In this document: piece after piece, positions 11,693 to 57,768 of the stretch
How positions within the stretch are numbered: the first letter of the stretch is position 1
Layout of the letters: every line of letters starts with the position of its first letter
Assembly: GCF_000380985.1 (NCBI RefSeq)
Contig: NZ_KB905699.1
Location: 62,001-126,000 of the forward strand
Reading direction: 5' to 3'
Length of the DNA: 64,000 nt
From: Proteiniphilum acetatigenes DSM 18083
GTDB taxonomy: Bacteria; Bacteroidota; Bacteroidia; Bacteroidales; Dysgonomonadaceae
Position numbers and translations under genes: made by a program
Notes under the pieces: model-generated
What the model was told of the DNA's origin: nothing
Database searches by the model: none
What the model saw: only the letters and a program-made list of their open reading frames with translations

Positions 11693-11693
11693 A

Positions 11694-27830: not shown

Positions 27831-28580
27831 TTACAGTTCTCGAATCATAATGTTTTTGTAATAAATTTGATTGCCATGATCCTGAATGAGAATATGACCA
27901 TCTCTTTTTGTACCAAAGTCACTGTAATTTTTAAATTTGGTTCCCTCTACTAATTTTTTAAATTCCAGAGAATCAATATCTACATTCAGTACTACCTCTC
28001 CGTTTAACCAATGTTCAATTTTATTCCCCTGAACCCTGATCTTCATGGAATTCCACTTGCCTAGAGGCTTGATGTTTTTGTTCTTATCGGGTGCATATAA
28101 CAGATATAATGCTGCTGTGGAACCTTTTTCGTCATCAAAACCAGGTATTTCATCCTGATGAAAATCATCGATTATCTGGTATTCAAATCCTATCCATTCC
28201 ATTCTTCCATTTTCGTTATTTTCCATTTGATGGACAAAATATTTCACCCCCGAGTTGACAAGCTTTGTCATTTTAAATTCCAGTTTTAATTCAAAATCAG
28301 CATATTTTTTCTTCGTTATAATATCACCTCCCTTCCTTCCGGGTAGAAGAATTAGCTCTTTCTTTTTAATTTGCCATCCTTCATTTGGAAAGGGTGTTTT
28401 GCGGATACTTGTCCAATATACTGTGTCTTTGGCAGTCTTGAAAAGAGGTTGCCAGCAGCCATTGGTTTTGTAACTCTTCTCATTATTTGTTACCGTATGA
28501 TTGTAGATATCCTTTGCGGTGATTTGTATAGAAAAGCAACTTAGTATGACGACGAAAAAAAACTTGTAGATCAAATGCAT
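27831..28580 (-). CDS. DUF1080 (3-keto-disaccharide hydrolase family) exported protein
   Basis: 249 residues with a Sec signal (FFFVVILSCFSIQITAK). The concanavalin-like DUF1080 fold shows as GGDIITKKKYADFELKLEFK, NSGVKYFVHQ, EYQIIDDFHQDE, WNSMKIRVQGNKIEHWLNGE and GHILIQDHGNQIYYKNI. Some members of this family cleave 3-keto-glycosides made by Gfo/Idh/MocA oxidoreductases. Four exported oxidoreductases of that type are 19-25 kb away on the same strand, which makes that role attractive here. The substrate is unknown. Confidence 0.87.
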   Translation of the reverse strand: MHLIYKFFFVVILSCFSIQITAKDIYNHTVTNNEKSYKTNGCWQPLFKTAKDTVYWTSIRKTPFPNEGWQIKKKELILLPGRKGGDIITKKKYADFELKLEFKMTKLVNSGVKYFVHQMENNENGRMEWIGFEYQIIDDFHQDEIPGFDDEKGSTAALYLLYAPDKNKNIKPLGKWNSMKIRVQGNKIEHWLNGEVVLNVDIDSLEFKKLVEGTKFKNYSDFGTKRDGHILIQDHGNQIYYKNIMIREL

Positions 28581-40018: not shown

Positions 40019-40030
40019 GATGATAATCAG

Positions 40031-41053: not shown

Positions 41054-41073
41054 ATGATTAAAACTATTTATTT

Positions 41074-41087
41074 TCACTAAAGTTAAA
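41074..41087 (-). promoter_or_regulatory. Possible -7 region of epimerase operon
   Basis: The minus strand reads TAACTTTAGTGAA, which resembles TAnnTTTG, about 20 bases before the chosen start. The same bases occur before the regulator gene at 57792-57804, next to another copy of the dispersed repeat. Confidence 0.4.
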
Positions 41088-41091
41088 TATT

Positions 41092-41150
41092 TGCTCGCCA
41101 TGGAATAATTCAAATGAGCTTGTCTTCTGCTCGTCTGGCTTAACGCAAAT
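41092..41150 (+). repeat. Copy of dispersed intergenic repeat
   Basis: gctcgccatggaataattca followed by aatgagcttgtcttctgctc and tggcttaacg. This matches 57844-57893 closely and the units at 18851-19046 more loosely. It lies upstream of the epimerase operon. Confidence 0.65.
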
Positions 41151-41228
41151 AGTTTAAAGGTATCATATGGAACTCGCAGTAAACATGTCCTTGTGTGAGA
41201 ACAGTTATTCTGCTCGTTTCATCGCTTT

Positions 41229-42457: not shown

Positions 42458-44821
42458 TTATTCTTGTGAAAACTCTACATTTGTTTGAGGATATCCCCTT
42501 AGTTTTAGAAGAAACTGTGGATCTATTTCATCTTTATAAAACTCAATAATATTTTTATTCAATGAAGTATTACTGTGATTGAAATCCACATTCTTGTTTA
42601 ATTGTATAAAACCTATTTTATCAAATAAATCGATCCTTTCTTCTCCAAAATAAACAGGAGGATTTACGATACAATTGGAGAAAAAAATACCACACGTAGA
42701 AGAAAGCGAATATGCAATTTCTATTTCATTCCTGATCGCAGGATTAAATTCGCAGTTCGAAAAAACAAACCGGCCTTTTAGGGGTTTGTCTTTATTCCCT
42801 GTAATATTTGTAATACTACATTTCTCAAAAAAGATATTTGCAATATATCCATCGTTTTGTATTGCGATATTGGAACAGTTTGAGAATAATATGGAAGGAT
42901 ATAAAGAGTTGTTGTACAGTGCTTTTTCGGGTGATTGCATCGTAAAATGGTACTGATTGATCTCTTTAGACAAATCTTCTAACTGGATGTTGTTAAAGTT
43001 GAGAATAACATTGGTCTGTAAAATATTATTCTTATAACCTCCATATTTATCAACTTGATACCCTCCTTGATCGGGAACAGACAATAATCTGATCCCTTTC
43101 TTTCTGTCAATCACCTCAATATTTTTGAACTTGATAAAGTTGGGAAAGTAAAGTCTTTCTCCATGTTCCATTACAGAAAATTGCGGAACTCTCATCACCC
43201 AGCATGTTGCCTCTTTTTGTTCCACCCCACTGAAATCAACCTTGAAGTTTTCTATCCGGATGTTCCTGCCAAAACGTATTGGGTACTTATAGTCGAAATT
43301 ATGTGGTGAGAAATTCAAAATAGATATATTGGGAAGGTTCCGACTGACTTTAAATAGACTATTTGTGATAGTAATATCTCCATCCCATCTGGAGCCATAA
43401 TCGCTTCTGAAATTAATAAAACTTGTACCGGCACAACTACTGTTATTTATTATCAGGCTGCCACCTCCGGTGGCAGTGATCCCCCTTTCTCCAATGTGAG
43501 AATCCAAAATGGATAGATTCCAGCAGTGGAAATGAATATCTACCCTATTTAAGAGGCAGTTCTCAATTTTAAGGTCTTTATTCAGGTTAGTTCCAAAAAC
43601 ACCCCAGTGGTTTTGGCTCCCTTCTGCGGTTACATTTTTGAAATGGCTTTTTAGAACACGACCCATTGAGATACCATATGTTCCACTATGTACATTATTT
43701 CCACTTTCTCTTGTATATAAATAGGGGGTCAATCGCACGTTTTCTAACCTAACGTCATACACGTTTGAGAATGAATAAAATCCATTTCTCGGGCTTGTGG
43801 TTGTAGTGTCTTCTTTCCCCGGCTCTAAACCAATCCACTGGTTTGAAATGGTAGTCCTGCTTCTTCTTACCTGGATACCATTTTTATAATACCCTCTTCT
43901 GGAAGAGGGGTTCTCTCCCGATAAATAAAAAATGCCTCCCTGTAGATGCAAGTAATTCTTATCAACGGGATAGGCTGTCAGTTTTGTGTAGTTTTTAAAT
44001 GACCAGGTGATATCTCCGATCACTTTCCCTGACTCTTCCACATAGAAAAAGTCTTCTCTTGCCCATGATTGACCTTTATAGGATGCACCAGCACGAAATC
44101 CAATTCTATCATTCGAATCTGTAATAATAATCAAGTGATTTTTATATGGTTTCAATGTAGGAATGACCATTTTATCCGAATTTAAATCTAATAACAATTT
44201 TTTCTTTTCTTCCGCGGACAGCACTATATTTTTCGGATTCTCTTTCGATGTTACTTCAAAACGAAAATCTGTCAGGCTATTATATTTCTCATCAATATGA
44301 AAAACGGTATTACCCCAGTCAACATCTGTCTGTATGATAATCTTTTCATTCTCCTTTAACCAGAACTCTCCTTTATGATTAACTATGGGGATATTTCTGG
44401 CATTCGCATAACGATGTGCTTTTGAAATCTGAACTGCATCATTATTGATACTATCTCCTTTTGCTCCAAACATTTTATAATTGATTGTTTGAGGTTCCAG
44501 AAGAAATGCTTTCAGACCGTTTGAAAGTGTTATATGGTATTCTTCTAATGAAGAATTTCCCGGGTCGACATATTTTATAATATAATCAGCAGCACCACCA
44601 TCATTTATTTCGTAGTAACCTAAAATTCTGGCTATGTTATTTACCGCCAACCCGTCGTCATTGATTAGCTCATTTACCGTAGAAAATACAATGAGTGGTG
44701 TTTTTAAATCGCTACGGTATAGACCTGATGGATAACTTTTAGAGAGTGGAACTAAAAATAAGATCAAATAGAGGATTGATTTAGATTGAATAGATGTTTT
44801 TTTTGAATGGGTGTGTATCAT
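42458..44821 (-). CDS. Exported right-handed beta-helix protein (possible polysaccharide lyase)
   Basis: 787 residues with a signal peptide (ends near SKSYPSG). YKMFGAKGDSINNDAVQISKA is the N-terminal motif of pectate-lyase-3 type helices, though usually YGAKGDG. Many short repeated beta rungs follow (RLENVRLTPY, HFKNVTAEGSQN, LKIENCLLNR, IFFSNCIVNPPV). No clear catalytic set (paired Asp/Arg) could be seen. It is likely to bind or cut a glycan in the periplasm or at the surface. A shared upstream element lies 134-162 bases before the start. Confidence 0.72.
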   Translation of the reverse strand: MIHTHSKKTSIQSKSILYLILFLVPLSKSYPSGLYRSDLKTPLIVFSTVNELINDDGLAVNNIARILGYYEINDGGAADYIIKYVDPGNSSLEEYHITLSNGLKAFLLEPQTINYKMFGAKGDSINNDAVQISKAHRYANARNIPIVNHKGEFWLKENEKIIIQTDVDWGNTVFHIDEKYNSLTDFRFEVTSKENPKNIVLSAEEKKKLLLDLNSDKMVIPTLKPYKNHLIIITDSNDRIGFRAGASYKGQSWAREDFFYVEESGKVIGDITWSFKNYTKLTAYPVDKNYLHLQGGIFYLSGENPSSRRGYYKNGIQVRRSRTTISNQWIGLEPGKEDTTTTSPRNGFYSFSNVYDVRLENVRLTPYLYTRESGNNVHSGTYGISMGRVLKSHFKNVTAEGSQNHWGVFGTNLNKDLKIENCLLNRVDIHFHCWNLSILDSHIGERGITATGGGSLIINNSSCAGTSFINFRSDYGSRWDGDITITNSLFKVSRNLPNISILNFSPHNFDYKYPIRFGRNIRIENFKVDFSGVEQKEATCWVMRVPQFSVMEHGERLYFPNFIKFKNIEVIDRKKGIRLLSVPDQGGYQVDKYGGYKNNILQTNVILNFNNIQLEDLSKEINQYHFTMQSPEKALYNNSLYPSILFSNCSNIAIQNDGYIANIFFEKCSITNITGNKDKPLKGRFVFSNCEFNPAIRNEIEIAYSLSSTCGIFFSNCIVNPPVYFGEERIDLFDKIGFIQLNKNVDFNHSNTSLNKNIIEFYKDEIDPQFLLKLRGYPQTNVEFSQE

Positions 44822-44989: not shown

Positions 44990-46897
44990 TCACTTCAAAA
45001 ACCATTCAAAAAAAGAATACACTATTTCATTGGATTTGGCATTGGGACTATGTTCGGGTCTGTTACTCATGCCCACCCGATAACTATAGCCTAAGAGTTT
45101 ATTAACCGCGATGGTATGATTTAAGGGGATCCAACGCTCAATAGGATCGGAAGAGCCACCCGACACAAGAAAAGGACGAGGTGCCATAAGAGCATGCAAT
45201 TCATGAAGATCATATCCTTCTCTTTGTAATTTTGGATACAAGCCTTTAGCATGTGCTCCGGTTTTATTCCATGTATTCTCCCAGGGAGGAGGGTAGTACC
45301 CTAAATACCACGGTTCCCAGTAATTGACTGCAGATCCTTTCGTCTCATCAAACACGATACCTGGATCGATCCATACGGCTGCCGCAAATTTCTCGTATAA
45401 ACAGGAGGCAAACATAGCCCACTTACCGCCATAGGAATGTCCGACTATTCCAATTCTCTCCGGATCCACCTCTTCTAATCCGGCAAGCGCTTCCAATGCA
45501 TTTGCTGCTGCATATGCTAATGTTGATAATGGTTGAATAATAGCGTTTTCCCTGTCAGGATAATAGATGGAATATGTTTTATCTTGAGTCGTTTCTGTAG
45601 TCCCTATCGACAGTGTGACAAATCCTCTTTTAACCAATTGATAAGCAAAATCTCTGTATGATTTATCTCCTATTCCTACAGCTGTCTCGGGTTCGTAAAA
45701 AACCGAGATCACGGCAGGCCTTTCTTCGGATGCATCTGGAATCAACAGATAACCTTCAGTTTCTTCGTTGGGAGTCCAGTAGAATTTTACCCGGTATTGT
45801 GTGAAGTCTTCACGTTGAGTTGTTTCCAATATTGTGAATTGTTGATCTCCTATAATAGGAGGCCATTCTCCCATCATTTCCATCCACCGGGTGCGAATCT
45901 CTTCACGTCTTTTTTCCCAATCAATTTTGTTTTTTACAACTGTTCCATCGTAGAATTGCAAAGGGGTACGGTAACCATGGAAGCAGTACTCATATTCTTT
46001 TGGAGGGTGCAGATACGGAGCAATTGTGAGCCATGAGTTTTCATTAACCTCGAAGAGTGTCACTTTCTCAGGGATCTTTACCGTATGATGTGCAGCAAGT
46101 TGTGATATTTTTACCTGAAGTTCATGCATCTTGATTGCCATTCTTTCTCCTAATACTCTTGCAGACTTACTATCTAGATGGGTTCTATCTCCATTATGGG
46201 CTAGTTCTTCTGATGTGGCGACAGCCGAAAGAGGAACTATACCGGGCAATTTATTTAATTCTTTATTGATGAGCATATAGTTTTCTCGATAATAACCTAA
46301 TTCGCCAGCTACAAATGGTACTTTAGGGTGTCCAATTTCATTCCTAAACAGGGTTATAAGTTTCTCAAGCTTTTCGATATATACCTTAGCTTTTTCGCCA
46401 TTGCTATCACCTTCTCCCTGATGCCAGATTATACCTTTTATAACACCGTATTTCATTGCTACATGTAATCTTTTGACAGCATCGTCATAGGGATAGTATT
46501 GCCCATCATAAGCGTCTTTTCCCGGTTGCCACATGTCAATGCTTGTACCACCTACAGCACAAGGGATTAATCCTATTTTTACATTCCTGTTTTTTTCAAA
46601 CTTAAACATTTTTTGTGCAAATGCCAATCCGGGGCCTACTCCAACTACTTTAGGTTTGTCGAAATGGAGAGGATCTTTGGCCATGACCCATTTATTTTTA
46701 TCGGTCAACATTAAAATGCGAGGATTGTTGGGCATGGATAATGAATCTATTTTGCCTCTTCCAGCCATATTTGATTGCCCCACCAACAAATAAAGGTGAA
46801 AATTGGGATCTGGTTTTATTTCGCCTATATGTAGTGATTTACATGAACATGTAGTTAAAACGAAGAGTAGATATAATATAAGATTGCTTGATTTCAT
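44990..46897 (-). CDS. Fusion of SASA-type sialate O-acetylesterase and alpha/beta-hydrolase esterase
   Basis: 635 residues with a lipoprotein-like signal (VLTTCSC). Domain 1 (about 30-255) is a SGNH/SASA carbohydrate esterase: LLVGQSNMAGRG with the nucleophile Ser, PCAVGGTSIDMW and IIWHQGEGDSNG. Domain 2 (about 290-635) is a dienelactone-hydrolase-like esterase with IGIVGHSYGGKWAMF (Ser488) and LMAPRPFLVSGGSSDPIERW; the closing His is probably RPEHSPN. Two different ester-removing domains on one chain suggest a heavily O-acylated substrate. It follows the oxidoreductase cluster after a small pseudogene. Confidence 0.88.
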   Translation of the reverse strand: MKSSNLILYLLFVLTTCSCKSLHIGEIKPDPNFHLYLLVGQSNMAGRGKIDSLSMPNNPRILMLTDKNKWVMAKDPLHFDKPKVVGVGPGLAFAQKMFKFEKNRNVKIGLIPCAVGGTSIDMWQPGKDAYDGQYYPYDDAVKRLHVAMKYGVIKGIIWHQGEGDSNGEKAKVYIEKLEKLITLFRNEIGHPKVPFVAGELGYYRENYMLINKELNKLPGIVPLSAVATSEELAHNGDRTHLDSKSARVLGERMAIKMHELQVKISQLAAHHTVKIPEKVTLFEVNENSWLTIAPYLHPPKEYEYCFHGYRTPLQFYDGTVVKNKIDWEKRREEIRTRWMEMMGEWPPIIGDQQFTILETTQREDFTQYRVKFYWTPNEETEGYLLIPDASEERPAVISVFYEPETAVGIGDKSYRDFAYQLVKRGFVTLSIGTTETTQDKTYSIYYPDRENAIIQPLSTLAYAAANALEALAGLEEVDPERIGIVGHSYGGKWAMFASCLYEKFAAAVWIDPGIVFDETKGSAVNYWEPWYLGYYPPPWENTWNKTGAHAKGLYPKLQREGYDLHELHALMAPRPFLVSGGSSDPIERWIPLNHTIAVNKLLGYSYRVGMSNRPEHSPNAKSNEIVYSFFEWFLK

Positions 46898-46950: not shown

Positions 46951-47067
46951 TTATACAAGAAATATAACACCACCCCCAATACCCATAATCCAGAACATAT
47001 CAAACCCGTGAAGTGCATCAATAGATCGGAACCTGTCGTTATCAGACATGTTGTTCTTACTGTTCAT
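46951..47067 (-). pseudogene. DUF5009-type acyltransferase remnant (38 residues)
   Basis: A 38-codon frame reads RFRSIDALHGFDMFWIMG before ending GGGVIFLV and a stop. This is the N-terminal signature of DUF5009 / heparan-alpha-glucosaminide N-acetyltransferase-like membrane proteins (RxxSLDALRGFDMFWIMG). The other helices are missing. Full-length members have about 370 residues. It sits between the last oxidoreductase and the SASA-esterase gene, on the same strand, so an acyltransferase once belonged to this operon. Confidence 0.7.
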
Positions 47068-47133: not shown

Positions 47134-48477
47134 TTATACTTTTAGTTCCCATCCTTTTTCGTAATTTCTTTTCCAGAATTTTACAGCCTCTTTGTCATTT
47201 ACAATCGTACCATTGTTATTTACCTTTACCGCTCTTCCAACTCTGTGAGAAATATTAGCCAGTTGTACAAGCTGAGTGCTCATGCAAGCCTCCGTTAAAG
47301 GGGAATTTAATTTATCGCCTTTACGGATGGCATTAAAGAAGTTTTGGAAATGATAGGCATCAAGGCTCTGTGTAGGATTTACTAGATTGCCTTCTTCAAA
47401 TACCATTTTGCTGTCGACATGTTTCACTAATTTGTTGTCCAGGTCAAATACTTTGTATTCATTTCCTCCTCCAATTGTCATGCTTCCTTTACTACCATAG
47501 AAGGTTACTCCGCTGGCATAGCCTCCTATATCTGATCGTACACAACTTTGACTTTCCCAGGTCATCACTTTGCCATTGGCGAATTTTAAGTTAACCAATT
47601 GAGTATCGGGTGTTTCCCAGTCATCCTGATAATGGTATCTACCTCCGATGGAATCCACAGATACTGGATAATCCAATTGCATCCCCCAACGTAATAAATC
47701 TACAAAGTGCATCCCATTATTCAGCGCTTCTCCTGTACCCCAGTGCCAGACCCAATGCCAGTCGTAATGAACAACATTGTCTTTATAAGGTACTCTAGGG
47801 GCTGGTCCCTGCCATAGTTCCCAATTTAACCAGGTTGGTATGGCTGTTGTTTTACCAATTCCCATGGAAGGACGTTTATTGTAATACCAGCTTTTACCAT
47901 AATGGATATCACCGATAATACCTTCATGCAGTTCTTTCATTGCATACGCCACATTGGGCCATGAGCGTCTTTGGTTCCCTACCTGGACTACCTTTCTATA
48001 TTTCTTTTTAGCTTCAATTAATATACGATTTTCATCCGGATTATGACTTGTGGGCTTTTCCAGATATACATGTTTTCCGGCTTTCATGGCCATCAGTGCT
48101 CCTGCAGCATGCCAGTGATCCGGAGTAGCGATAAAGACTGCATCAAAGTTGTCAGACTCCAACATTTTTCGAATGTCTTCATGTGCTCTTGGTTTGTTGC
48201 CTGCTGTTTTTTCAACGGTAGCGATGCATTTTTCAATAGAGCGGGTGTCAACATCACAGATATCGGTCACTATACAACCTCTTTCTTTTTCATTGGCAAA
48301 TCCTCTTGCTAACGCATTCCCCCTTGCATTAACACCCACTCCGGCAATCCGGATACGGTCATTTGACCCCATAATATTCCTATAGCTCGATGCACTAAAG
48401 CCGGGCAAAACTCCTCCAAGAGATATTGCAGAGGTGCCTATGGCTACATTCTTGATAAATTGTCTTCTTGTAGTCAT
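47134..48477 (-). CDS. Tat-exported Gfo/Idh/MocA family oxidoreductase (447 aa)
   Basis: NAD(P)-dependent sugar dehydrogenase fold. A twin-arginine signal (TTRRQFIKNVAIG) directs it folded to the periplasm. Rossmann motif IRIAGVGVNARGNALARGFA, then IATPDHWHAAGALMAMKAGKHVYLEKP with the conserved EKP Lys. Later, GTGEALNNGMHFVDLLRWGM has the His seen in GH109-like and oxidoreductase members. It is the last of four consecutive exported oxidoreductases, 12 bases after the preceding one. Cofactor is probably bound tightly. The substrate is unknown. Confidence 0.9.
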   Translation of the reverse strand: MTTRRQFIKNVAIGTSAISLGGVLPGFSASSYRNIMGSNDRIRIAGVGVNARGNALARGFANEKERGCIVTDICDVDTRSIEKCIATVEKTAGNKPRAHEDIRKMLESDNFDAVFIATPDHWHAAGALMAMKAGKHVYLEKPTSHNPDENRILIEAKKKYRKVVQVGNQRRSWPNVAYAMKELHEGIIGDIHYGKSWYYNKRPSMGIGKTTAIPTWLNWELWQGPAPRVPYKDNVVHYDWHWVWHWGTGEALNNGMHFVDLLRWGMQLDYPVSVDSIGGRYHYQDDWETPDTQLVNLKFANGKVMTWESQSCVRSDIGGYASGVTFYGSKGSMTIGGGNEYKVFDLDNKLVKHVDSKMVFEEGNLVNPTQSLDAYHFQNFFNAIRKGDKLNSPLTEACMSTQLVQLANISHRVGRAVKVNNNGTIVNDKEAVKFWKRNYEKGWELKV

Positions 48478-48489
48478 AATAATATGTTT

Positions 48490-50097
48490 TTATATGATTT
48501 TTTTGTTTTCCTCATCCCAAAATACTTGTCGTTTCTCAAGATAAGAACGATGCGCCATTAAGCACGCGACTCCTTCTTCATAAGCAACTTCTATATTGGT
48601 GCTAGGCGTCTTGTTTTCACGAATACAGTTAAGCCATTCACGTAAATGCAAATGTGTTACGTCTATTTGTCGACCATTGATAACGGTGTTTGTCAATCCA
48701 CGGTCGGCATAGTATTTCTCTGATGCCGATGTGACTGCATCTATCTGTCCTGCATTCGGATTGAAAGAGAGCATTGGAGAACCAGTTTCAATCAATCCGG
48801 ATGCTATCCCTTTTTTATATTGCGTTGAATTCCTATCTACAGTTATTTTAATGTTTTGTCCCAGTTCCATTGATGCGTCGTGTCCCATGAAGACTCTTCC
48901 GCGATTCCTGCTGGAAGCAAGATTTCCACTATACATTAATGTCAGGTCTTTTTCAGGATATTCAAATACACAGTGCAAACAATCGGGCATTTCACGATTA
49001 TCCTTCCAGTAATATATGCCACCTGAAGAGGAGACAGATTTAGGTATACCGATTCTGAGTAGTTGATTGACTGCATCAAATTCATGCGTAAATAACTGAC
49101 CGATCATACCGGTATCATAAGCAAACCATTTAGTCCAGTTATAAAACCGATCGATACTAAAAGGAACATATGGTGTATTTCCTAACCATTGTTTCCAATC
49201 GATGCTTTTCTCATCTCCGGGTTTGGGGTTACCTTTATTATCCAGATGCCTTATCCACGCTCCTTCCGCTGTATTACGGTTACTGGTCGTTTCTATAAGG
49301 GTGATTTTACCCAACACATTTTTATCAATAATTTCTTTAGCTTGTTTAAAAACAGTGCTTTGTGTAATTTGATGTCCTAACTGAAAAGTAATATGGCTGT
49401 CTTTTACCACACGATATAGTTCATTCAGTTCCTCTTCAGTGTGAGCTACACTCTTTTCCAGATAAACATGTTTTCCCGCTTTAGTAACGTCGATAGCCAT
49501 ATGTCCGTGATGATGGTCGGGAGTTGAAATTATTACTGCATCAATATCTTTATCGGCAAGCATTTCCTGATAAGTATGATATCGTTTGACAGGAAGGGGG
49601 GATGCTCCCGATCGAATATTATTATTAGCTATGGTTAAGCCACGCTCGGCATGTAAATCGAATACATCACAAATCCCGGTGATGGCAACATGAAGATTTT
49701 CCTGTTCCAACCAACTTTTTAGTGTATTGTTGTTTTCTCTTTTCTTAACCTCTTCAGGATGCATGAATCCCAGTCCTGCAGATAATTGTTCTGCACGCCG
49801 TCCAAATCCTATGATCCCTATCCGGATTATATCCTGTTTCTGTTCTCTGCCATACTCCGGAATAGAAAACTCCATTTTATCTAGTCCTAATTCCTGAATA
49901 ATACGTTGTCTTTTATTCTTGTCATAGTCAATCTTCTTGAGCAGTTCGAAACCGAACAACCCTGCAACCGGAATTCCTGCGAATGCTTTCAAGACATTCC
50001 TGCGTGAAACGTCTTTCGACGTTTTTTTTGTATCCTCTGAATGAGAACTCTTGCTGTTGAAGTTTTCTTCTTTTGAGTTGTTATCTTGTTTTTCCAT
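48490..50097 (-). CDS. Tat-exported Gfo/Idh/MocA family oxidoreductase (535 aa)
   Basis: Starts with a hydrophilic 30-residue extension followed by a Tat signal (VSRRNVLKAFAGIPVAGLFG). The Rossmann part is IIRIGIIGFGRRAEQLSAGL, and VIISTPDHHHGHMAIDVTKAGKHVYLEKSV carries the catalytic-side Lys. GMIGQLFTHEFDAVNQLLRIG matches the C-terminal alpha/beta substrate domain. It is longer than typical members (330-450). It overlaps the DoxX gene by 17 bases, so the two are translationally coupled. Confidence 0.9.
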   Translation of the reverse strand: MEKQDNNSKEENFNSKSSHSEDTKKTSKDVSRRNVLKAFAGIPVAGLFGFELLKKIDYDKNKRQRIIQELGLDKMEFSIPEYGREQKQDIIRIGIIGFGRRAEQLSAGLGFMHPEEVKKRENNNTLKSWLEQENLHVAITGICDVFDLHAERGLTIANNNIRSGASPLPVKRYHTYQEMLADKDIDAVIISTPDHHHGHMAIDVTKAGKHVYLEKSVAHTEEELNELYRVVKDSHITFQLGHQITQSTVFKQAKEIIDKNVLGKITLIETTSNRNTAEGAWIRHLDNKGNPKPGDEKSIDWKQWLGNTPYVPFSIDRFYNWTKWFAYDTGMIGQLFTHEFDAVNQLLRIGIPKSVSSSGGIYYWKDNREMPDCLHCVFEYPEKDLTLMYSGNLASSRNRGRVFMGHDASMELGQNIKITVDRNSTQYKKGIASGLIETGSPMLSFNPNAGQIDAVTSASEKYYADRGLTNTVINGRQIDVTHLHLREWLNCIRENKTPSTNIEVAYEEGVACLMAHRSYLEKRQVFWDEENKKII

Positions 50098-50596
50098 TTT
50101 GAAGTTTCCTTTTATTGCGAGAATAAATAAAAAAATCTAATCCGAATATTTTGCTTGTTGGGAAAAGGGCTAATCCAAAAAGAGCGATCGCCTCAATCAA
50201 TGTTCTATTAACAACCAGGTTACTCCCGTCGACAGGGAGTGTATATTCATACCCCACCAAAGGAGGAACACTCAGATAATAGATAAAGACTAAAAATGAT
50301 CCTATAATTGCCGCCGGTTTGAAGAGAAAACCAAAAATCAATCCTACTCCTATGGCCATTAATCCCCAGATATTCAAAAAATCGATTATGGTCAGCAAAT
50401 TGGCATTTGAGATAATCCAATTTGAAAGACCCGATAAAATCCCTTGGGATTCCTGAAGGAAATTTGCGGATGTCCATTGTGGATTTAAAACTTTCGATAT
50501 TCCTTCGTACAGAATATGCCAACCAACTACAAACCGGAGTATGAGTAAAAATATAAGTTGAGACTTCGAATAATTATTTTCGCTTATCATTGCCAT
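50081..50596 (-). CDS. DoxX family inner-membrane protein
   Basis: 171 residues with four membrane helices and the DoxX start LRFVVGWHILYEGISKVLNPQW. LINIWGLMAIGVGL-like and YYLSVPPL segments follow, with NRTLIEAIALFGLALFP at the end. DoxX/DoxD relatives are quinone-linked or redox partner membrane proteins. It sits between two exported oxidoreductase genes, overlapping one and 4 bases from the other. It may therefore pass electrons from the periplasmic enzymes to the quinone pool; that is inference. Confidence 0.85.
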   Translation of the reverse strand: MAMISENNYSKSQLIFLLILRFVVGWHILYEGISKVLNPQWTSANFLQESQGILSGLSNWIISNANLLTIIDFLNIWGLMAIGVGLIFGFLFKPAAIIGSFLVFIYYLSVPPLVGYEYTLPVDGSNLVVNRTLIEAIALFGLALFPTSKIFGLDFFIYSRNKRKLQNGKTR

Positions 50597-50600
50597 TGAT

Positions 50601-52004
50601 TTATTTTTCAGCCAGTTTTACTGCCTGTGTAGTAATGTAATATTTTGCTAGAGTATTGGCTTTTTCCCACTCTGGCATATCGTGGTTTACAAGAAAATTG
50701 AAGAAACTTTCAGCTACATACTTGAAGTGTGATTCATGTCCTTCTCTCTGCTCGACAGGGATATTGATGAGATACTCTCCTTTAACGGAGGTAGGAGAAA
50801 CAGAGACGAAAGAGTAAATCGTTTGGATTTTTTCGACTGCTTTTTGCAAATTACCGGAAAACTGCTTCTCATCCAATTCTTCCGGCTTTTGCACATACAG
50901 TTGTTTAATAAAATTCTGTTCTTTATTCTGCTCTGTTCTCAAAATAGCTTTTGTCCCTTTTACAACTGACACAAAGGTATCTCCGCTACCTTCGGGTGCT
51001 TCGTAATCCCAAGTCACTTTCAGATTTACATTCCGATTCCTGACATTGAAATGGAGAGTACCGTTAGCATAGACTTTCAACACAGAGTTGTCGATGTATT
51101 TCTGTAGATAATTGGGGAAAGAGGTTTCACCGGTTGATTTTGTGAATTGTGCCAATGTTATTTCAGTAGGCCAGTGGGTGGACGAGATATTTCCAATATC
51201 GGTGGTATAATCGATAGCCTGATCGGGAAAACATTTCCAAAATAGCAAGTCGATTAGATGGGTAGTTACATCTGCGATACCTTCCCCTTGTTGTTCCACA
51301 TCGTAGTACCATGCCGGACGGATCAACGGTGTGCCGGCCACTTCTTTATAGAAATGGTGTACACTTTCCATATAGACAGCGGGTTCTTCGGGTGTTCCCG
51401 ATTGCAGTTCTCCAAAAAAATCATAATCATTGATGAGTTCCTTCTCTATGATATTCAGCAGATCGTAACGCTCGGTCATCATATCATATAACAACACGTT
51501 TTTCGCTTCAGTGTTGGCATAAGCTTCTTCAAGTAAAAGGAAGTCTTTCCGGTTAATTGCCATCGGTTTATCCGACAGGACGTTTAATCCGGCATCTACC
51601 GCACTGAGAATATATCCTGTCTTCTCTTTATTATTACCAGCAAGTACAATTACGTTTCCTCTTTTGTCGGATATCATCTTATTCAAAAAATCGTCACCTG
51701 TATAGACAATAATCTGCCAGTTTGTAGGATCTTCATCTCTTTTATTAAAAGACTCAATGGCCAAAAGATATTGTTTTAATCCGACATCTTCGGTAGCTAC
51801 ATATACAAATACCGAATCATTCACTTGCGGCATATTCCTTTTTTGAAGTAGACTGGCATGAAAATGTCCTGGAGCCAGGACAATTAGTTTTATCTCTCCC
51901 GTTTTTCCGGTGAATATTGTCTGATCTTCCGCAGGATTATTATTTTTTTTCATACAAGAAAATAATATTAGTCCGACTACAATAATTATCCACCTCTTTT
52001 TCAT
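50601..52004 (-). CDS. Lipoprotein Gfo/Idh/MocA-like oxidoreductase with PF16490-type C-terminus
   Basis: 467 residues with a lipoprotein signal (GLILFSCMKK). The N-terminal half, KLIVLAPGHFHASLLQ, then YGD-like stretches and GLNVLSDKPMAINRKDF, is the nucleotide-binding fold with DKP in place of EKP. QQGEGIADVTTHLIDLLFWK is the substrate-domain helix. The C-terminal half matches the putative oxidoreductase C-terminal family of Bacteroidota. The usual GxGxxG loop is degenerate (APGHFH), so cofactor binding may differ. It lies 4 bases before DoxX. Confidence 0.82.
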   Translation of the reverse strand: MKKRWIIIVVGLILFSCMKKNNNPAEDQTIFTGKTGEIKLIVLAPGHFHASLLQKRNMPQVNDSVFVYVATEDVGLKQYLLAIESFNKRDEDPTNWQIIVYTGDDFLNKMISDKRGNVIVLAGNNKEKTGYILSAVDAGLNVLSDKPMAINRKDFLLLEEAYANTEAKNVLLYDMMTERYDLLNIIEKELINDYDFFGELQSGTPEEPAVYMESVHHFYKEVAGTPLIRPAWYYDVEQQGEGIADVTTHLIDLLFWKCFPDQAIDYTTDIGNISSTHWPTEITLAQFTKSTGETSFPNYLQKYIDNSVLKVYANGTLHFNVRNRNVNLKVTWDYEAPEGSGDTFVSVVKGTKAILRTEQNKEQNFIKQLYVQKPEELDEKQFSGNLQKAVEKIQTIYSFVSVSPTSVKGEYLINIPVEQREGHESHFKYVAESFFNFLVNHDMPEWEKANTLAKYYITTQAVKLAEK

Positions 52005-52009
52005 TTCTG

Positions 52010-53008
52010 TTATTTTAATTTACGGATCAGTTTCCTTGCTTCTTTTTCACCTTTTGCGTAGGCAGCATCCATAGAGACGATTTTTCCTCCTTTGCTTTTG
52101 CTGATATCGGCGGCCTCAATAAAGGTGAATATTTCCAGAGTTTCTTTTTCCGGTACAGGAGGAATACGTGTCTTGAAAAAATTAAGTATTTCTCTTAAAA
52201 GTGGTTCGTATCCCTTATATTCTCCGGTGGAGACAACTCCTTTGTCTGTGAAAGCACGGCCTCCATACCCATTTTTTCCTGTACGTGTAGCTCTGACAGT
52301 TCCTATGCGTCCATCATCCCAAAGCCCAACAACCATATCGGTTCCTTCTGAGGTCATACGATTTACTGAAACACAGCCTGTTCCCATTACAGTGAAAAGA
52401 ATTTCAGTGCCATGGATACCATACCATGCCATATCTAAGTGAGATGGTTCAAGATGGCCCGGGCTATAGCAATCCGCACCGAGGACCTTACCTAATTCGC
52501 CATTGCGCAGCTTCAGGCTTTCGGAGACATATCGCAATGAAGAGGAAGAGAATACAGGGACATTGTATTGTTTTGCCAATTGGAAAATAGCAATAGCTTG
52601 TGCTAAGTTAGCGCCTATTGGTTTATCGATAAAAACAATCTTTCCTGCTTTAAATACTTCGTAAGCCTGTTCCAGATGCAAATTACCATCATTGGTTTCC
52701 AACAATACACAATCAACTCTCTCCAAAAGTTCGGCAATGGAAGGTACAACCTCCACCCCCATTTCCTTTACCTGCTCTATATAGCCGGGGATTCGATCAT
52801 AACTCGATTTGATTGTTTTTGATCCATAGGGATAGGCGGCCACAATGGTAAAATCCTTGAACTCTTCTTTTTTGTCTTTTCCATTCAGAAATTTAGTGAA
52901 TGCAATGGAGTGGGAGGTATCCAATCCGATAATTCCTACTTTTATCTGTGCCTGGGCTATCAATAAAAGTCCCGACAAAATAGTTGATAAAATAATTTTT
53001 AGTCTCAT
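52010..53008 (-). CDS. Secreted Gfo/Idh/MocA family oxidoreductase (332 aa)
   Basis: Starts MRLKIILSTILSGLLLIAQAQ, a Sec signal; the ATG 30 bases upstream would add a charged leader and is less likely. IKVGIIGLDTSHSIAFTKFL is the Rossmann loop; IVFIDKPIGANLAQAI has the conserved Lys-Pro. LEPSHLDMAWYGIHGTEILFTVMG is the substrate helix. It is the first of the four oxidoreductase genes and is 5 bases from the next, so they form one transcript. It follows nagB by 58 bases. Confidence 0.87.
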   Translation of the reverse strand: MRLKIILSTILSGLLLIAQAQIKVGIIGLDTSHSIAFTKFLNGKDKKEEFKDFTIVAAYPYGSKTIKSSYDRIPGYIEQVKEMGVEVVPSIAELLERVDCVLLETNDGNLHLEQAYEVFKAGKIVFIDKPIGANLAQAIAIFQLAKQYNVPVFSSSSLRYVSESLKLRNGELGKVLGADCYSPGHLEPSHLDMAWYGIHGTEILFTVMGTGCVSVNRMTSEGTDMVVGLWDDGRIGTVRATRTGKNGYGGRAFTDKGVVSTGEYKGYEPLLREILNFFKTRIPPVPEKETLEIFTFIEAADISKSKGGKIVSMDAAYAKGEKEARKLIRKLK

Positions 53009-53066
53009 AATGATTGAATTTTTAGAATCAAGAACCAAGATTCAAGACACAGTATCTATTGTTTTT

Positions 53067-53807
53067 TTAATTTAAAAGTGATGCACTTGCTTTATCCAGG
53101 TAGAGAACGGCATCTTCTTTTGTTCTCAAGATAGTAGCCGGACATTTCTCGCTGATCTCTTCGTTTAATGTGCGGTAGACCGCCTCAGCCTTGTTTTTAG
53201 CCGGTACCATGCAGAACATATATTTAGCTTTCAACAGGGCAGGGATGGTAACTGTAATAGCATGGGTAGGTACCATGTCTATGCCGGAAAACAGATTCTC
53301 ATTTACTTGCTGTTGCCTGCAAGACATATCCAGTTCTACTACTTTTACTTGTTTCGGATCATTGAAATCAGCTACAGGAGGGTCGTTGAATGCAATATGT
53401 CCGTTCTCCCCAATCCCGAGACAAACAATATCTACCGGGTACTGATTCAGCAACCCCGCATATCTTTCACACTCAGCGTAAGGGTCTTCGGCCCTGCCGT
53501 TTATATAATGGATACTTTTAAACGGGACTTTGTCGAAAATACGCTCTTTCAGGAAATTTCCGAAGCCTTGCGGCGCATCTTTTTCCAATCCTATATACTC
53601 GTCCATATGAAAAGCATTGATCTTTTCCCAGCGGATTTGCTTATCGGCAATCAACTCTTTCATAAAATCACCTTGTGATGGTGCGGCCGCAAAGATCATA
53701 TTGATCTCCTCTTTCTCTCCGAGTAATTGCCGGATGATCTCCGATACATTAGCCGCCGCTTCCTTACCCATTTCCTCTCGCGTATGGAAGATCTTCACTT
53801 CCAACAT
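53067..53807 (-). CDS. nagB: Glucosamine-6-phosphate deaminase
   Basis: Cytoplasmic enzyme that converts glucosamine-6-phosphate to fructose-6-phosphate and ammonia. Motifs are NMIFAAAPSQGDFMKEL (phosphate loop), NAFHMDEYIGLEK with the catalytic Asp, and VCLGIGENGHIAFNDPP, diagnostic for the family. From MLEVKIFHTREEMG it has 246 residues. Earlier ATGs at 53855 and 53915 are in frame, and the former would overlap nagA by 20 bases. It follows nagA, completing GlcNAc-6-P breakdown. Confidence 0.9.
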   Translation of the reverse strand: MLEVKIFHTREEMGKEAAANVSEIIRQLLGEKEEINMIFAAAPSQGDFMKELIADKQIRWEKINAFHMDEYIGLEKDAPQGFGNFLKERIFDKVPFKSIHYINGRAEDPYAECERYAGLLNQYPVDIVCLGIGENGHIAFNDPPVADFNDPKQVKVVELDMSCRQQQVNENLFSGIDMVPTHAITVTIPALLKAKYMFCMVPAKNKAEAVYRTLNEEISEKCPATILRTKEDAVLYLDKASASLLN

Positions 53808-53835
53808 TCCTTTAGTGAATGTGATTACATTCGTG

Positions 53836-55026
53836 TTAATTTCGGTATATGACATTTCCTTCCAAGATTGTATATGAAACATTAATATTATCATCAAAAA
53901 TAACAAAATCAGCATCCTTGTTTTTTTGGATAGATCCTTTCTGCTGATCTATCTTCATCATGCGGGCCGGGGTTAAGGTCATCATCTTTACCGCTTCCAC
54001 CAAAGGGACTTCGGCTATATTTATCATGGTTCTGACTAACCGGTCGGTAGTAGCAACACTTCCTGCAAAAGCTGTACGATCGGGTAGTTTGGCTACACCG
54101 TCTTCGATGATCACCTTCTGCCCCTTGTCGAGGCTACCCAGGATAGACTCACCGTCAGGCATTCCTGCTCCCCGCATTGAGTCGGTACATAGCGCGGTTT
54201 TGTCAGGCCCTTTGAATTTATATACGAACTGAAGTAAGGATTTAGGCAGATGTACCCCATCGGCAATGATCTCCACATTCATGTCATCGATCAGGTAGGC
54301 CGCTTCTACAATACCGGCATACCGGAAGGCGTTTCTGCGGGTGATGGTCGACATAGCCGAATAGAGGTGGGTAATATGGTTGAATCCGGCGTTGTAGGCA
54401 TCCACAACCTCTTCATAGATAGCATCGCTATGGGCGATAGAGGTGAGGATATTTCTTTCCCTGAGAACTTTACCAAACTCCAATGCACCGGGGAGCTCGG
54501 GCGCCAGGCTCCAACGAACGATGTCGTCCGATGCAGCCAATACCTTATTGTATTCTTCCGGTTCGGGATTTCTGAGGTATTTGGGATCCTGGGCACCCCG
54601 TTGGTTATAGGCAAAGTAGGGGCCTTCAAGGTGAAGTCCAAGAAATTTGGCTCCTTTGGTATTCTGTTTTACTGCTTTTTTATAGGTGGAGAATGTTTTC
54701 ATCAACTCTTCGAATGTACTGGTAAGAGTTGTAGGTAAAAGTGCGGTAGTCCCGTGCTTTGCATGTGTTTCCGCCGCACCGAGGTACGCTTCGACGGTTC
54801 CGTCCATAAAGTCGTGTCCGCCACCCCCGTGCGTGTGGATATCAATGAAACCGGAAGAGACATATTTGTCCCGGGCATCGATGACCACATCTCCGTCATC
54901 TGAAATAACTTCGTGAGGGTTTACAATATCGACTATTTTTCCGTTCTCGCATACAATGGCCAGATTCTCTTCTATCCTATCAGGGAAGATGATCTTTCCG
55001 TTTTTTATGATGATTCGGTTATTCAT
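53836..55026 (-). CDS. nagA: N-acetylglucosamine-6-phosphate deacetylase
   Basis: 396-residue amidohydrolase that deacetylates GlcNAc-6-phosphate to glucosamine-6-phosphate, feeding NagB. Metal and substrate motifs are SGFIDIHTHGGGGHDFMDGT, LGLHLEGPYF with the metal Glu, SIAHSDAIYEE, ITHLYSAMSTI and LCTDSMRGAGMPDGE with the catalytic Asp. GSVATTDRLVRTMI is the C-terminal beta-strand return. Length is normal. It is the second gene after the MFS permease in the transcript. Confidence 0.95.
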   Translation of the reverse strand: MNNRIIIKNGKIIFPDRIEENLAIVCENGKIVDIVNPHEVISDDGDVVIDARDKYVSSGFIDIHTHGGGGHDFMDGTVEAYLGAAETHAKHGTTALLPTTLTSTFEELMKTFSTYKKAVKQNTKGAKFLGLHLEGPYFAYNQRGAQDPKYLRNPEPEEYNKVLAASDDIVRWSLAPELPGALEFGKVLRERNILTSIAHSDAIYEEVVDAYNAGFNHITHLYSAMSTITRRNAFRYAGIVEAAYLIDDMNVEIIADGVHLPKSLLQFVYKFKGPDKTALCTDSMRGAGMPDGESILGSLDKGQKVIIEDGVAKLPDRTAFAGSVATTDRLVRTMINIAEVPLVEAVKMMTLTPARMMKIDQQKGSIQKNKDADFVIFDDNINVSYTILEGNVIYRN

Positions 55027-55070: not shown

Positions 55071-55140
55071 ATAGATGAGTAGATTTACTGATTAGTAGAT
55101 TAATCATCAAATTATCACATCAATCAAATTATCACATTAA
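55071..55140. repeat. AT-rich simple repeat between MFS gene and nagA
   Basis: Iterated words gattagtaga and catcaaattatcacatcaat; positions 55103-55124 equal 12683-12704 exactly. The tail runs to the stop codon of the MFS gene. No hairpin or frame of interest. Confidence 0.5.
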
Positions 55141-56492
55141 TTATTTGTTTTTCTCCATGATTTGATTTTGTGTCCACTGGCAGCGTACCAGACAATATAG
55201 GCAAAGCAGGGAATCAGGATCCAATATGCCTGCTTCATTGCTTCAAAGGGAGATAAAGATGCATTCAATTCCACAAAAGCATTGTACACAATGGGCATGA
55301 TGGCGCTTCCGCACAGGGCCATCACCAGGAATGAGGCACCCAGATTGGTGTATTTTCCTAACCCGTTGATAGCCAGCGGCCAGATGCCAGCATAGAGCAA
55401 AGCGTTTGGAAGCCCCATCATTACTAAATACCAGAGGGAGATATCGGAAGTGATACCAAGAAACCGTACTGTTCCCGATGTGGTTATTATCATCACAGAT
55501 AGCAGTAAATTGATGGAGGCACAAATCAGGAGGGCGTTCCGCTGCTTCAGGTATTTTGGTATAAGCGCGATTCCTAAGAAATAACCGATAAACGTCAATA
55601 ACATGGTATAAGAGGGGATATTCTGAGCTGGTCCCGCCAGACTCTCCCCCATAGTCCCTGCGTATTGAATACTGGTACCCAACGCGATCATCTGGGTTCC
55701 TATATGAAAGAACATGGCAATCACCCCTAAAATAAGCGCCGGATATTGTAAAATGGATTTATGTGAATTTACATCTTCTGCTGACTGTTTATTTACTATA
55801 GAGGGATCTAAATCAGGCAAAGGTGAGTAACGGACAATTATACCGAAGATAAAAAGTGCAATACCTAAAATGAGATAAGGTGTCATTACTCCCTTTATTA
55901 AAGTATCTAAAGCTGTTTCCAAGGCTATTCCAGTGTAATTTCCCGCTTCAATCTCCCGCATAAGTACTTTGTCGGATTCCCTGATAACGACAGCTGCAAA
56001 TATCAGATTTGCAATTACCCCTGCCAGTTTATTACCGGTACCTACAATACTCATTCTTTTGGCAGCACTCTCCATGGGACCTACAATAGTTACATAGGGA
56101 TTAGCTGCAGACTGAAGAATAGCCAGTCCCACTCCTAACAGGAATAATCCCAAAAGAAATATTTGATAGATACGCCAGTAAGCAGCCGGAACAAAAAGCA
56201 AAGCTCCTATCGACATACACCATAATCCAAACATCATTCCTTTTTTGTAACCTACCTTATTTAATAAAAAAGAGGAGGGAATTGCCATAATCAAATAAGC
56301 AATATAAAAGGCAAATGTCACCAGGTAGGACTGGAAATTCGATAATTGAAGAGTTAGCTGGAAATAGGGTATTAAGATGGTGTTTACCCATGATACCAAT
56401 CCGAAAATAAAAAACAGCAGTGCCAGTATTATCATCGATTTGATGGTAGCGCTTCTGTCTTGTACATGATTGATTTGAGGACTGTTACTCAT
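55137..56492 (-). CDS. MFS sugar permease of the FucP/GluP/NagP type
   Basis: 451 residues, 12 predicted membrane helices. FIFGLVSWVNTILIPYFQLT is the N-terminal FucP-type signature. LLGVGLAILQSAANPYVTIVG is the diagnostic helix 4 loop, and WPLAINGLGKYTNLGASFLVM is helix 10. It brings a monosaccharide across the inner membrane with protons. With nagA and nagB beside it, GlcNAc or another N-acylated amino sugar is the likely cargo. It is the first gene of the nag-oxidoreductase group. Confidence 0.92.
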   Translation of the reverse strand: MSNSPQINHVQDRSATIKSMIILALLFFIFGLVSWVNTILIPYFQLTLQLSNFQSYLVTFAFYIAYLIMAIPSSFLLNKVGYKKGMMFGLWCMSIGALLFVPAAYWRIYQIFLLGLFLLGVGLAILQSAANPYVTIVGPMESAAKRMSIVGTGNKLAGVIANLIFAAVVIRESDKVLMREIEAGNYTGIALETALDTLIKGVMTPYLILGIALFIFGIIVRYSPLPDLDPSIVNKQSAEDVNSHKSILQYPALILGVIAMFFHIGTQMIALGTSIQYAGTMGESLAGPAQNIPSYTMLLTFIGYFLGIALIPKYLKQRNALLICASINLLLSVMIITTSGTVRFLGITSDISLWYLVMMGLPNALLYAGIWPLAINGLGKYTNLGASFLVMALCGSAIMPIVYNAFVELNASLSPFEAMKQAYWILIPCFAYIVWYAASGHKIKSWRKTNN

Positions 56493-56604: not shown

Positions 56605-57768
56605 TTATGCGGTACGGGAATCACTGTATTTCTTACGATATTCGATAGGAGTACAGCCTTTCATCTTTTTGAATATTCTTGCGATATTCTTACAGTCATT
56701 GAATCCTGACTCTAATGCCAGGTCGAACAGGGTTCTTTCAGTGGTTACCAATAAATGTGCGAAATAATCGATTCTGCAACTTAGGATAAACTGATAGATA
56801 GAGGTTCCCATTTCATCTTTGAACTTCACTTCCAGGTTACGTCGGGACAACGGGACCAATTGTGTAAGTTCCTCTATATTGATATCGGAGATAAAATTGT
56901 CTTCTATAAAATTTACTACCTGTGAAATATATTCATTCGCAATATCATACTTTTCTGTAGATTTCCTAAGTTCAAACCTGGTCGGACGGATAATGATATT
57001 GAACGGTTCTTTAATTTCTCCCCTGCTCATCCTGTCGATGAGCCTGCCTGCCTCATATCCTCCTCTTTCCACATCGGTAACAATGGAAGAGATAGGTGGG
57101 TCGGACAGATTACAGATCAGTTCGTCATTATCTACTCCCAGCAAAGCAATCTCTTCGGGAATTTGTATATTATTGATCTTGCAGATTTGGGATACCCTTA
57201 ATGCGAAATTATCGTCGCAGGCAAACAGCCCCACAGGTTTAGGCAGTGATAAGAGCCATTCGTCGAGCTGTATATGGCTGGTACTCCATTCTTCCCCGTG
57301 CAGATTTTCACTTTCGAAATAATGATAATTTCCGCCGACTTTTTCTATTTGAGACCTAAATCCCTCAGCTCTTTCGCGGGACCAAACCACCCCTTTATTT
57401 CCATAAAATGCAAAATTCCGGTAACGTCTTTTAATGAAAAATTGAGCAGCCATCTCTCCGGTGCCGAAATAGTCTCCGGTCAGATTGGAGAAATAGAGAC
57501 TCCGCTCTTTATAATTTTGAAGTAGAATTGGAATGTTTAACGACTCCAGCAGATTAGTACCCTCATGGTCCCACCGTGCCACAATAGCGTCTGCTGCCCA
57601 TTCTTTGGCCCACTCCACGATCCCTTCTTTACCGTACAGTGTTTTATAGTAGGAGGGTAGGCGATAAAAGATCCAGGGACCGTGTTCCTTGGAATATTGG
57701 ATCAACCCTCTGAGCAGCCGGCGACTGAATTCGCTGGAATAATCAATAAGAATAAGTATTTTTAGCAT
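56605..57768 (-). CDS. XylR-type regulator: sugar-binding domain plus AraC HTH
   Basis: 387 residues. The first ~270 residues are a LacI/periplasmic-binding-like sensor (LIDYSSEFSRRLLRGLIQYS, PVGLFACDDNFALRVSQICK, IALLGVDNDELICNLSDPPI). The last ~110 are an AraC HTH (DINIEELTQLVPLSRRNLEV, ESGFNDCKNIARIFKKMKGC). This is the layout of E. coli XylR. Divergent or adjacent regulators of this kind usually control the next operon; the MFS-nag genes start 112 bases downstream on the same strand. The effector is probably the amino sugar or a phosphate of it. Confidence 0.88.
   Translation of the reverse strand: MLKILILIDYSSEFSRRLLRGLIQYSKEHGPWIFYRLPSYYKTLYGKEGIVEWAKEWAADAIVARWDHEGTNLLESLNIPILLQNYKERSLYFSNLTGDYFGTGEMAAQFFIKRRYRNFAFYGNKGVVWSRERAEGFRSQIEKVGGNYHYFESENLHGEEWSTSHIQLDEWLLSLPKPVGLFACDDNFALRVSQICKINNIQIPEEIALLGVDNDELICNLSDPPISSIVTDVERGGYEAGRLIDRMSRGEIKEPFNIIIRPTRFELRKSTEKYDIANEYISQVVNFIEDNFISDINIEELTQLVPLSRRNLEVKFKDEMGTSIYQFILSCRIDYFAHLLVTTERTLFDLALESGFNDCKNIARIFKKMKGCTPIEYRKKYSDSRTA

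Follow-up and report, generated by a model that had tools for sequence, protein, structure and literature searches.

A near-obligatory DoxX-Gfo2 pair in Proteiniphilum acetatigenes DSM 18083 and its relatives as a candidate inner-membrane redox module for glycoside oxidation

The window analyzed here, a stretch of 64,000 nucleotides of Proteiniphilum acetatigenes DSM 18083 (contig NZ_KB905699.1, positions 62,001 to 126,000), contains a tight minus-strand cluster of five genes (47134-53008), coding, in the order of transcription, for Gfo4, Gfo3, DoxX, Gfo2, and Gfo1. The first-pass annotation had described this cluster as four consecutive exported Gfo/Idh/MocA oxidoreductases with a DoxX membrane protein coupled by overlap, and strand, overlap, and Pfam matches confirmed this. 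The main finding concerns DoxX (171 amino acids; 50081..50596, minus strand; PF07681, 29.3 bits, cut-off 23.6 bits) and its partner Gfo2, an anchored Gfo/Idh/MocA dehydrogenase (48490..50097, minus strand; PF01408, 54.9 bits, cut-off 24 bits), whose genes overlap by 17 bp. The pairing of both proteins was nearly obligatory in a sample of the order to which the window belongs. DoxX and Gfo2 may constitute an inner-membrane redox module from which electrons leave via DoxX to quinone, a mechanism to which we assign an even chance.

The pairing was assessed with a profile of the DoxX subfamily (A4), run on 197 genomes of the order of the window (Bacteroidales, according to the titles of the matching records). 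As only part of the first-look candidates was scored per genome (12 in a phylum survey, 18 for DoxX in the order, and 7 for Gfo2 and BT_2158-type proteins in the order), the counts from these genome searches are lower bounds and absences are uncertain. The subfamily DoxX was retrieved from at least 41 of the 197 genomes, at 69 places, 41 of which had an adjacent Gfo2 gene on the same strand and 27 of which were fusions, leaving one with neither (L212). The neighbors of this sole unpartnered DoxX (L212, 3455-3967) looked housekeeping-like by eye. Phylum-wide, the subfamily DoxX was present in at least seven of 296 genomes, that of the window included, and all six DoxX loci outside the genome of the window were Gfo2 pairs. 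A scan of named genomes gave at least 579 confirmed DoxX relatives; among the best 80 of these, kept by likeness to one DoxX and including 10 that also occurred in the order sample, there were 73 Gfo2 pairs, four fusions, two loci cut by contig ends, and one other, hence a partner in 77 of 80. Gfo2 pairs occurred in records titled Bacteroidota and its groups, Chlorobiota, KSB1, Aminicenantes, Neomarinimicrobia, and Caldithrix. A record titled Sedimentisphaerales contained a fusion, and one titled Latescibacterota (L138) was the other case, with no Gfo2 adjoining DoxX. These titles may mislead on the phylum, since most of the records are metagenome assemblies. In three pairs (L126, L147, and L161) the Gfo gene lay upstream of DoxX; for two of these, the Gfo2 score was weak (123 and 138 bits). 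Whether DoxX is paired beyond the window had been set beforehand as a refutation test, and partners were indeed found for 68 of the 69 places in the order and in records of several phyla.

Approached from the side of Gfo2, 44 places in the order scored at least 470 bits, 40 of which adjoined DoxX, and two others resembled halves of genes split between contigs (G514:C236 and G377:C117). Gfo2 was matched in 37 genomes, each of them among the 41 with DoxX; the remaining four had fusions only (G057, G438, and G460) or a lone DoxX (G488). In the genome of the window, both subfamily DoxX genes adjoined a Gfo gene, and neither of the two other DoxX genes recognized by Pfam had a PF01408 match within 100 kb. 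Mirror-tree correlations over the 19 loci with all three proteins were 0.69 for DoxX and Gfo2, 0.42 for DoxX and BT2158, and 0.62 for Gfo2 and BT2158, the last value making this analysis only mildly supportive. The conserved unit is DoxX with one enzyme, Gfo2, and not with all four oxidoreductases of the first-pass annotation; Gfo1, Gfo3, and Gfo4 are changeable neighbors. A conserved unit of four oxidoreductases was rejected, Gfo3 appearing in L052 only among the matches listed for annotated relatives. Gfo4, among the same matches listed, had a cut-off match of 231 bits in L052 and one of 20 bits in L031.

At the 27 fusion places, DoxX is continued by another domain within one protein. The same element, RR-x2-L...P-x-x-G, stands at the start of all 41 Gfo2 proteins and behind DoxX in 25 of the 27 fusions. 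Its two arginines, proline, and glycine were invariant in 10 aligned fusions, as were R33, P43, and G46 of the Gfo2 anchor in 54 sequences. In the window, this anchor is a helix in the structure model of Gfo2 (residues 32-70; 49888..50004, minus strand), and no A-x-A cleavage site was seen in the anchor-bearing sequences that were read by eye. Pfam recognized DoxX alone in the four fusions scanned, and NCBIfam gave no match for the two submitted to it. The structure model of a fusion had a mean predicted local distance difference test score (pLDDT) of 77 and a predicted template modeling score of 0.57, with only four sequences behind DoxX. Its C-terminal barrel was closest to aldo-keto reductases (AKR), the nine best PDB matches all being PA4992 (E 2.6e-7 to 2.1e-6; target TM 0.68-0.74) and other TIM-barrel proteins following from E 1.9e-5. 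The catalytic tetrad of the AKR family appears to be lost in the fusions, as judged by eye. Since Gfo2 and the fusions share the RR element and their folds are unrelated, DoxX plus RR anchor makes up a module that has been joined to two folds.

Two further clues, which go beyond the first-pass annotation, concern covalently bound flavin mononucleotide (FMN). According to PMC12052999, the final residue of the motif D-x-x-[S/T]-G-A-[S/T] is where ApbE links FMN to the protein, and replacement of the glycine by alanine in another protein lowers flavinylation to about half. The strict motif was found directly behind the anchor in 20 of the 27 DoxX fusions, or in 23 when either glycine or serine is accepted at that position; some fusions use an S-A-T or S-A-S variant (L143, L145, L189, L210, and L211). 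In addition, ApbE is the last gene of a cassette DoxX-Gfo2-BT2158-DUF1080-AP_endonuc_2-ApbE in one lineage (L136 and L162, both titled Dysgonomonas, L175, and L176), and these four occurrences may represent one evolutionary event. An ApbE gene also lay divergently upstream in four Aminicenantes loci by profile (L118, L124, L154, and L164), confirmed by Pfam for L154; two further Aminicenantes loci did not extend far enough for a judgment. Behind the DoxX-Gfo2 cassette of L154, genes for an Rnf-Nqr membrane subunit and an Fe-S protein were present (10868-12264).

The genomic context of the pair points to the degradation of glycosides via 3-keto intermediates. In Bacteroides thetaiotaomicron, BT2158 acts, according to PMC11300592, as a glycoside 3-dehydrogenase in the periplasm, and growth on trehalose, leucrose, and palatinose depends on it; BT2157 is described in PMC9007349 as a 3-ketotrehalose hydrolase. 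Proteins of the BT_2158 type (E threshold 1e-150; at least one above the curated cut-off in 47 of the 48 genomes) were present in 38 of the 41 genomes with the subfamily DoxX and in 10 of the 156 without (Fisher p 9e-28), or, by genus, in 31 of 34 and 6 of 113, respectively (p 2e-22). In 19 genomes, the BT_2158-type gene lay within 12 kb of DoxX. A shared lifestyle could be behind part of this co-occurrence, but hardly behind the adjacency. The genome of the window itself contains, at G000:C13 (L049 and L177), DoxX, a Gfo2 paralog, a BT_2158 equivalog (912.3 bits, cut-off 750), a DUF1080 protein, and an isomerase-like protein; the latter was recognized by its own profile, and Pfam assigned the G015 copy (L050) to AP_endonuc_2. 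In the window, a gene for a DUF1080 protein, or 3-keto-disaccharide hydrolase (27831..28580, minus strand; PF06439, 131 bits, cut-off 26.8, E 6.8e-38), lies on the strand of the cluster, 18.5 kb beyond it; the first-pass annotation had noted a DUF1080 gene further along the region. In one relative (L052), a 402-bit match of this protein follows Gfo4-Gfo3-DoxX-Gfo2-Gfo1 and a putative DUF5009-like gene (3128-4246), for which Pfam gave no match. Near DoxX-Gfo2 in Aminicenantes, an isomerase-like AP_endonuc_2 part and a 3-keto-disaccharide hydrolase were fused (L124, 10783-12261; L154, 8162-9637). The co-occurrence counts and the G000:C13 cassette make the link to the oxidize-then-cleave 3-keto route suggested earlier a strong one.

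The mechanism that we favor, drawn from sequence comparison and structure models, treats DoxX and Gfo2 as one inner-membrane redox module. Gfo2 would be exported in folded state via the RR pathway, and its N-terminal helix would keep it anchored beside DoxX. At the periplasmic face of the membrane, Gfo2 would use a bound nicotinamide to oxidize either a sugar or glycoside or what a partner dehydrogenase has produced. As a free nicotinamide pool is not expected in the periplasm, DoxX would pass the electrons on to the quinone pool, and a carrier probably stands in between. For the DoxX-AKR fusions, the predicted carrier is FMN that ApbE has linked to the D-x-x-[S/T]-G-A-[S/T] motif; whether or not Gfo2 uses its degenerate version of the motif, the module would serve the 3-keto-glycoside route, alongside the glycoside 3-dehydrogenase, the DUF1080 hydrolase, and the isomerase-like protein. 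DoxX is favored as the exit because it is a near-obligate partner, because its family bears a weak likeness to the quinone-reducing DoxD, and because its fusions contain the flavinylation motif. A more general form of this mechanism is tentative and has somewhat less than an even prospect: DoxX plus RR anchor could be a reusable membrane electron-exit cassette, placed on periplasmic sugar oxidoreductases of either the Gfo/Idh/MocA or the AKR-like type, with covalent FMN installed by ApbE relaying electrons to quinone.

Several observations weigh against electron exit through DoxX and a flavin. Ten genomes hold the 3-dehydrogenase without the subfamily DoxX, so that DoxX is not required for the 3-keto pathway, and two of the 44 Gfo2 places stand without DoxX (G043:C58 and G451:C4), the former following a nagB-like gene. 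The DoxD matches were below the cut-off, in one paralog each (NF041179, 21.4 bits, cut-off 300, E 2e-4; PF04173, 21.1 bits, cut-off 22.7, E 3.1e-4), and the window DoxX gave no DoxD match in Pfam or NCBIfam, DoxA and sulfur genes not having been searched for. As to ApbE, the copies in Aminicenantes may serve rnf genes, since such genes flank the L154 locus. ApbE was further found in 46 of 47 genomes with the subfamily DoxX and in 37 of 40 without, which makes its genome-wide presence uninformative, and this was rejected as evidence. In a single case, G424, DoxX and Gfo2 were present, ApbE was not, and the Gfo2 motif was DAITSPT. The strict motif itself is absent from 72 of 74 Gfo2 proteins (two being strict), from all 38 nearer relatives, from all 41 Gfo2 proteins of the order sample, and from the window Gfo2 (residues 453-459, DAVTSAS; 48721..48741, minus strand). 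Among 59 aligned Gfo2 proteins, the look-alike has glycine in only two and proline in the next place in 11; the confidence of the Gfo2 model is low around the motif, too low for the structure models to place it.

These last results bear on an alternative to flavinylation of Gfo2, namely that its D-x-x-[S/T]-S-A-T stretch is a structural turn before a helix, accidentally resembling the motif of the fusions. The glycine lost in 57 of the 59 aligned sequences and the proline in 11 are in line with such a turn, as is the position far along the chain, unlike that in the fusions, where the motif stands just behind the anchor. Nevertheless, the aspartate and the last threonine or serine are kept in 59 of 59, and S-A-T or S-A-S is shared with the fusion variants given above. 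In its G-or-S form, the motif occurs in 50 of the 74 Gfo2 proteins (from the named loci and one further set of loci), 20 of the 38 nearer relatives, and 24 of the 41 proteins of the order sample, these sets partly overlapping; of the shuffled Gfo2 sequences, 0.5% contained it. It was absent from 44 other Gfo proteins, partly from the same genomes as Gfo2 (0 of 23 of the BT_2158 type and 0 of 21 others). Searches for FMN_bind, DUF2271, and DUF3570 gave no match in the window Gfo2 or the four scanned fusions. A structural turn and a functional motif appear to us equally credible for Gfo2.

Electron exit as such competes chiefly with a closed redox loop from sugar to sugar, in which Gfo2, in the manner of glucose-fructose oxidoreductase (GFOR), re-oxidizes its bound nicotinamide with a second keto-sugar, DoxX serving, for example, to hold the enzyme at the membrane or to hand over substrate. 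The Gfo/Idh/MocA fold of Gfo2, its matches to GFOR and glucoside 3-dehydrogenase structures, and the occurrence of the BT_2158 family without the subfamily DoxX in 10 of 48 genomes fit this loop. However, Gfo2 seemingly has an anchor helix of its own already, an unrelated domain, AKR-like, occurs in fusion with DoxX as well, and sugar hand-over would not predict a flavinylation motif in the linker of 20 of 27 fusions; the closed loop is considered less likely than electron exit. More doubtful still is the view that RR-anchored enzymes have in DoxX a dedicated insertion or folding partner, or a membrane protein that binds sugars or lipids: two different catalytic domains are indeed accompanied by DoxX together with the RR anchor element, but the invariant R21, W26, Y30, E31, K35, and W41 of DoxX and the weak DoxD likeness of its paralogs suggest chemistry over scaffolding, and BT_2158-type proteins with RR signals (by eye) occur in the 10 genomes without the subfamily DoxX. 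Chance adjacency of DoxX and Gfo2 was rejected on the order, named-locus, same-genome, and Gfo2-side counts.

Concerning the single proteins, R21, G25, W26, L29, Y30, E31, G32, K35, and W41 of DoxX were invariant in 18 aligned relatives, and likewise in sets of 20 and 44 rows, and no PDB sequence relatives of the window DoxX were found up to E 1. The structure model of Gfo2 (mean pLDDT 78) showed a full Gfo/Idh/MocA fold; by fold, its first matches were RgNanOx and YjhC. Gfo1 (47134..48477, minus strand; 55.6 bits) and Gfo4 (332 amino acids; 52010..53008, minus strand; 42.6 bits) exceeded the PF01408 cut-off, as did Gfo2, and Gfo3 (50601..52004, minus strand) was recognized by its C-terminal PF16490 domain only. 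Neither Gfo1 (153.8 bits) nor Gfo2 (102.8 bits) of the window reached the cut-off of BT_2158_fam (NF058561, 750). A PDB relative of Gfo3 is 4oo3, titled hypothetical protein (E 1e-133); the best one of Gfo4 was weak (E 8.8e-5). Of the signals proposed by the first-pass annotation, reading of the N-termini by eye upheld twin-arginine translocation (Tat) for Gfo1 (RRQFIK, cleavage ASA|S), a lipoprotein signal for Gfo3 (lipobox LFSC), and a Sec signal for Gfo4; Gfo2 has the RR pair, and an A-x-A cleavage site was not seen. Gfo/Idh/MocA proteins are characterized by a glycine-rich nucleotide loop and a catalytic lysine in an E-K-P motif. Gfo1 (GxGxxxRG loop and EKP lysine) and Gfo2 (GxGxR loop, lysine 215 of E-K-S/P, H338, and D341) have a normal loop and the lysine. 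Nicotinamide binding by all four enzymes, as presumed earlier, is doubtful, since Gfo3 (APGHFH) and Gfo4 (GLDTSH) lack the GxGxxG loop, both keeping the lysine (DKP).

The spacing of the five genes (Gfo4-Gfo3 5 bp, Gfo3-DoxX 4 bp, and Gfo2-Gfo1 12 bp, besides the overlap) makes a single transcript plausible; Gfo4 is taken to start at the ATG at 53008, whereas the open reading frame tool opens at a TTG at 53038. Scans for promoters (34 found, shuffle mean 37.2) and terminators (14 found, shuffle mean 9.9, standard deviation 3.3) were near shuffle level and were discarded as evidence. Upstream, 58 bp from Gfo4, lies a nagB-like gene (53067-53915), followed by nagA (53836-55026), a nagP-like gene of the major facilitator superfamily (55137-56492), and a LacI-sensor/AraC regulator (56605-57768), all on the minus strand; among these, nagA alone exceeded its NCBIfam cut-off (281.9 versus 225.65). 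A solitary Gfo2 elsewhere (L235, 573-2910) stands directly behind a glucosamine-6-phosphate deaminase-like gene (by eye), which recalls this nagB linkage. The window locus is a side branch with N-acetylglucosamine genes, and an amino-sugar glycoside as its substrate is a guess. Downstream on the same strand, a 38-codon frame with stop (46951-47067) is a truncated remnant matching the start of a gene of which L052 has an intact copy (3128-4246). It is followed by a protein that combines a SASA-type esterase with an alpha/beta hydrolase part (44990..46897; Pfam), a 787-amino-acid protein with no Pfam match (42458-44821), and Nramp-like, epimerase, dihydrodipicolinate synthase-family, and M20 genes (37776-42437), matches of which accompany DoxX-Gfo2 at L041 and L051, both of G015.

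The DoxX-Gfo2 pair raises the question of where electrons go in periplasmic glycoside oxidation by nicotinamide-type enzymes, as a free cofactor pool is not expected there. A near-obligate membrane partner that is common to two unrelated folds, one of them with a flavinylation motif, offers a concrete and testable answer. If true, it would give a function to this DoxX subfamily and suggest how glycosides might serve anaerobes as a direct source of respiratory energy. The more general form of the mechanism, a reusable cassette with covalent FMN, would define a new class of membrane-bound sugar dehydrogenases and extend the ApbE substrates by a new group.

As to known systems, DoxX was nowhere named together with 'Gfo Idh MocA', DUF1080, or ApbE in the open-licence literature of PubMed Central, outside of which most subscription papers fall. 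The thiosulfate:quinone oxidoreductase DoxD/DoxA is weakly resembled by two of the DoxX paralogs. GFOR has the same fold as Gfo2; it is exported with tightly bound NADP(H), shuttles hydride from aldose to ketose, and is not known to need a membrane partner. The electron carriers of the lactose 3-dehydrogenase LacABC differ, LacA being a flavoprotein of the GMC type that has cytochromes as partners. LacABC of Caulobacter likewise performs a periplasmic, membrane-bound sugar 3-oxidation tied to a DUF1080 hydrolase, as described in PMC9007349. Among the 20 proteins of the window that were scanned, Pfam recognized no LacABC-like one. With the extracytosolic proteins flavinylated by ApbE, as covered in PMC8238504 and PMC12052999, the fusions share the strict motif in 20 of 27 cases and one lineage shares an ApbE gene in its cassette, whereas the FMN_bind, DUF2271, and DUF3570 domains find no match in the window Gfo2 or the four scanned fusions and the glycine is mostly missing in Gfo2. 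The BT2156-BT2159 pathway of B. thetaiotaomicron resembles the G000:C13 cassette in its BT_2158_fam member, DUF1080 protein, and isomerase-like protein; DoxX and Gfo2 are added in the latter, and Gfo1 and Gfo2 of the window remain below the BT_2158 cut-off. Finally, the glucoside-3-dehydrogenase AL3 of Alistipes sp. (PDB 8tdf and 8tdh) provides the best PDB sequence relatives of Gfo2 (profile E 1e-36) and Gfo1. In the alignment with AL3, Gfo2 agrees at the E-K lysine and at a histidine; in contrast, the identity is about 19% over the fold, and Gfo2 adds an anchor helix, an extra motif, and a DoxX partner.

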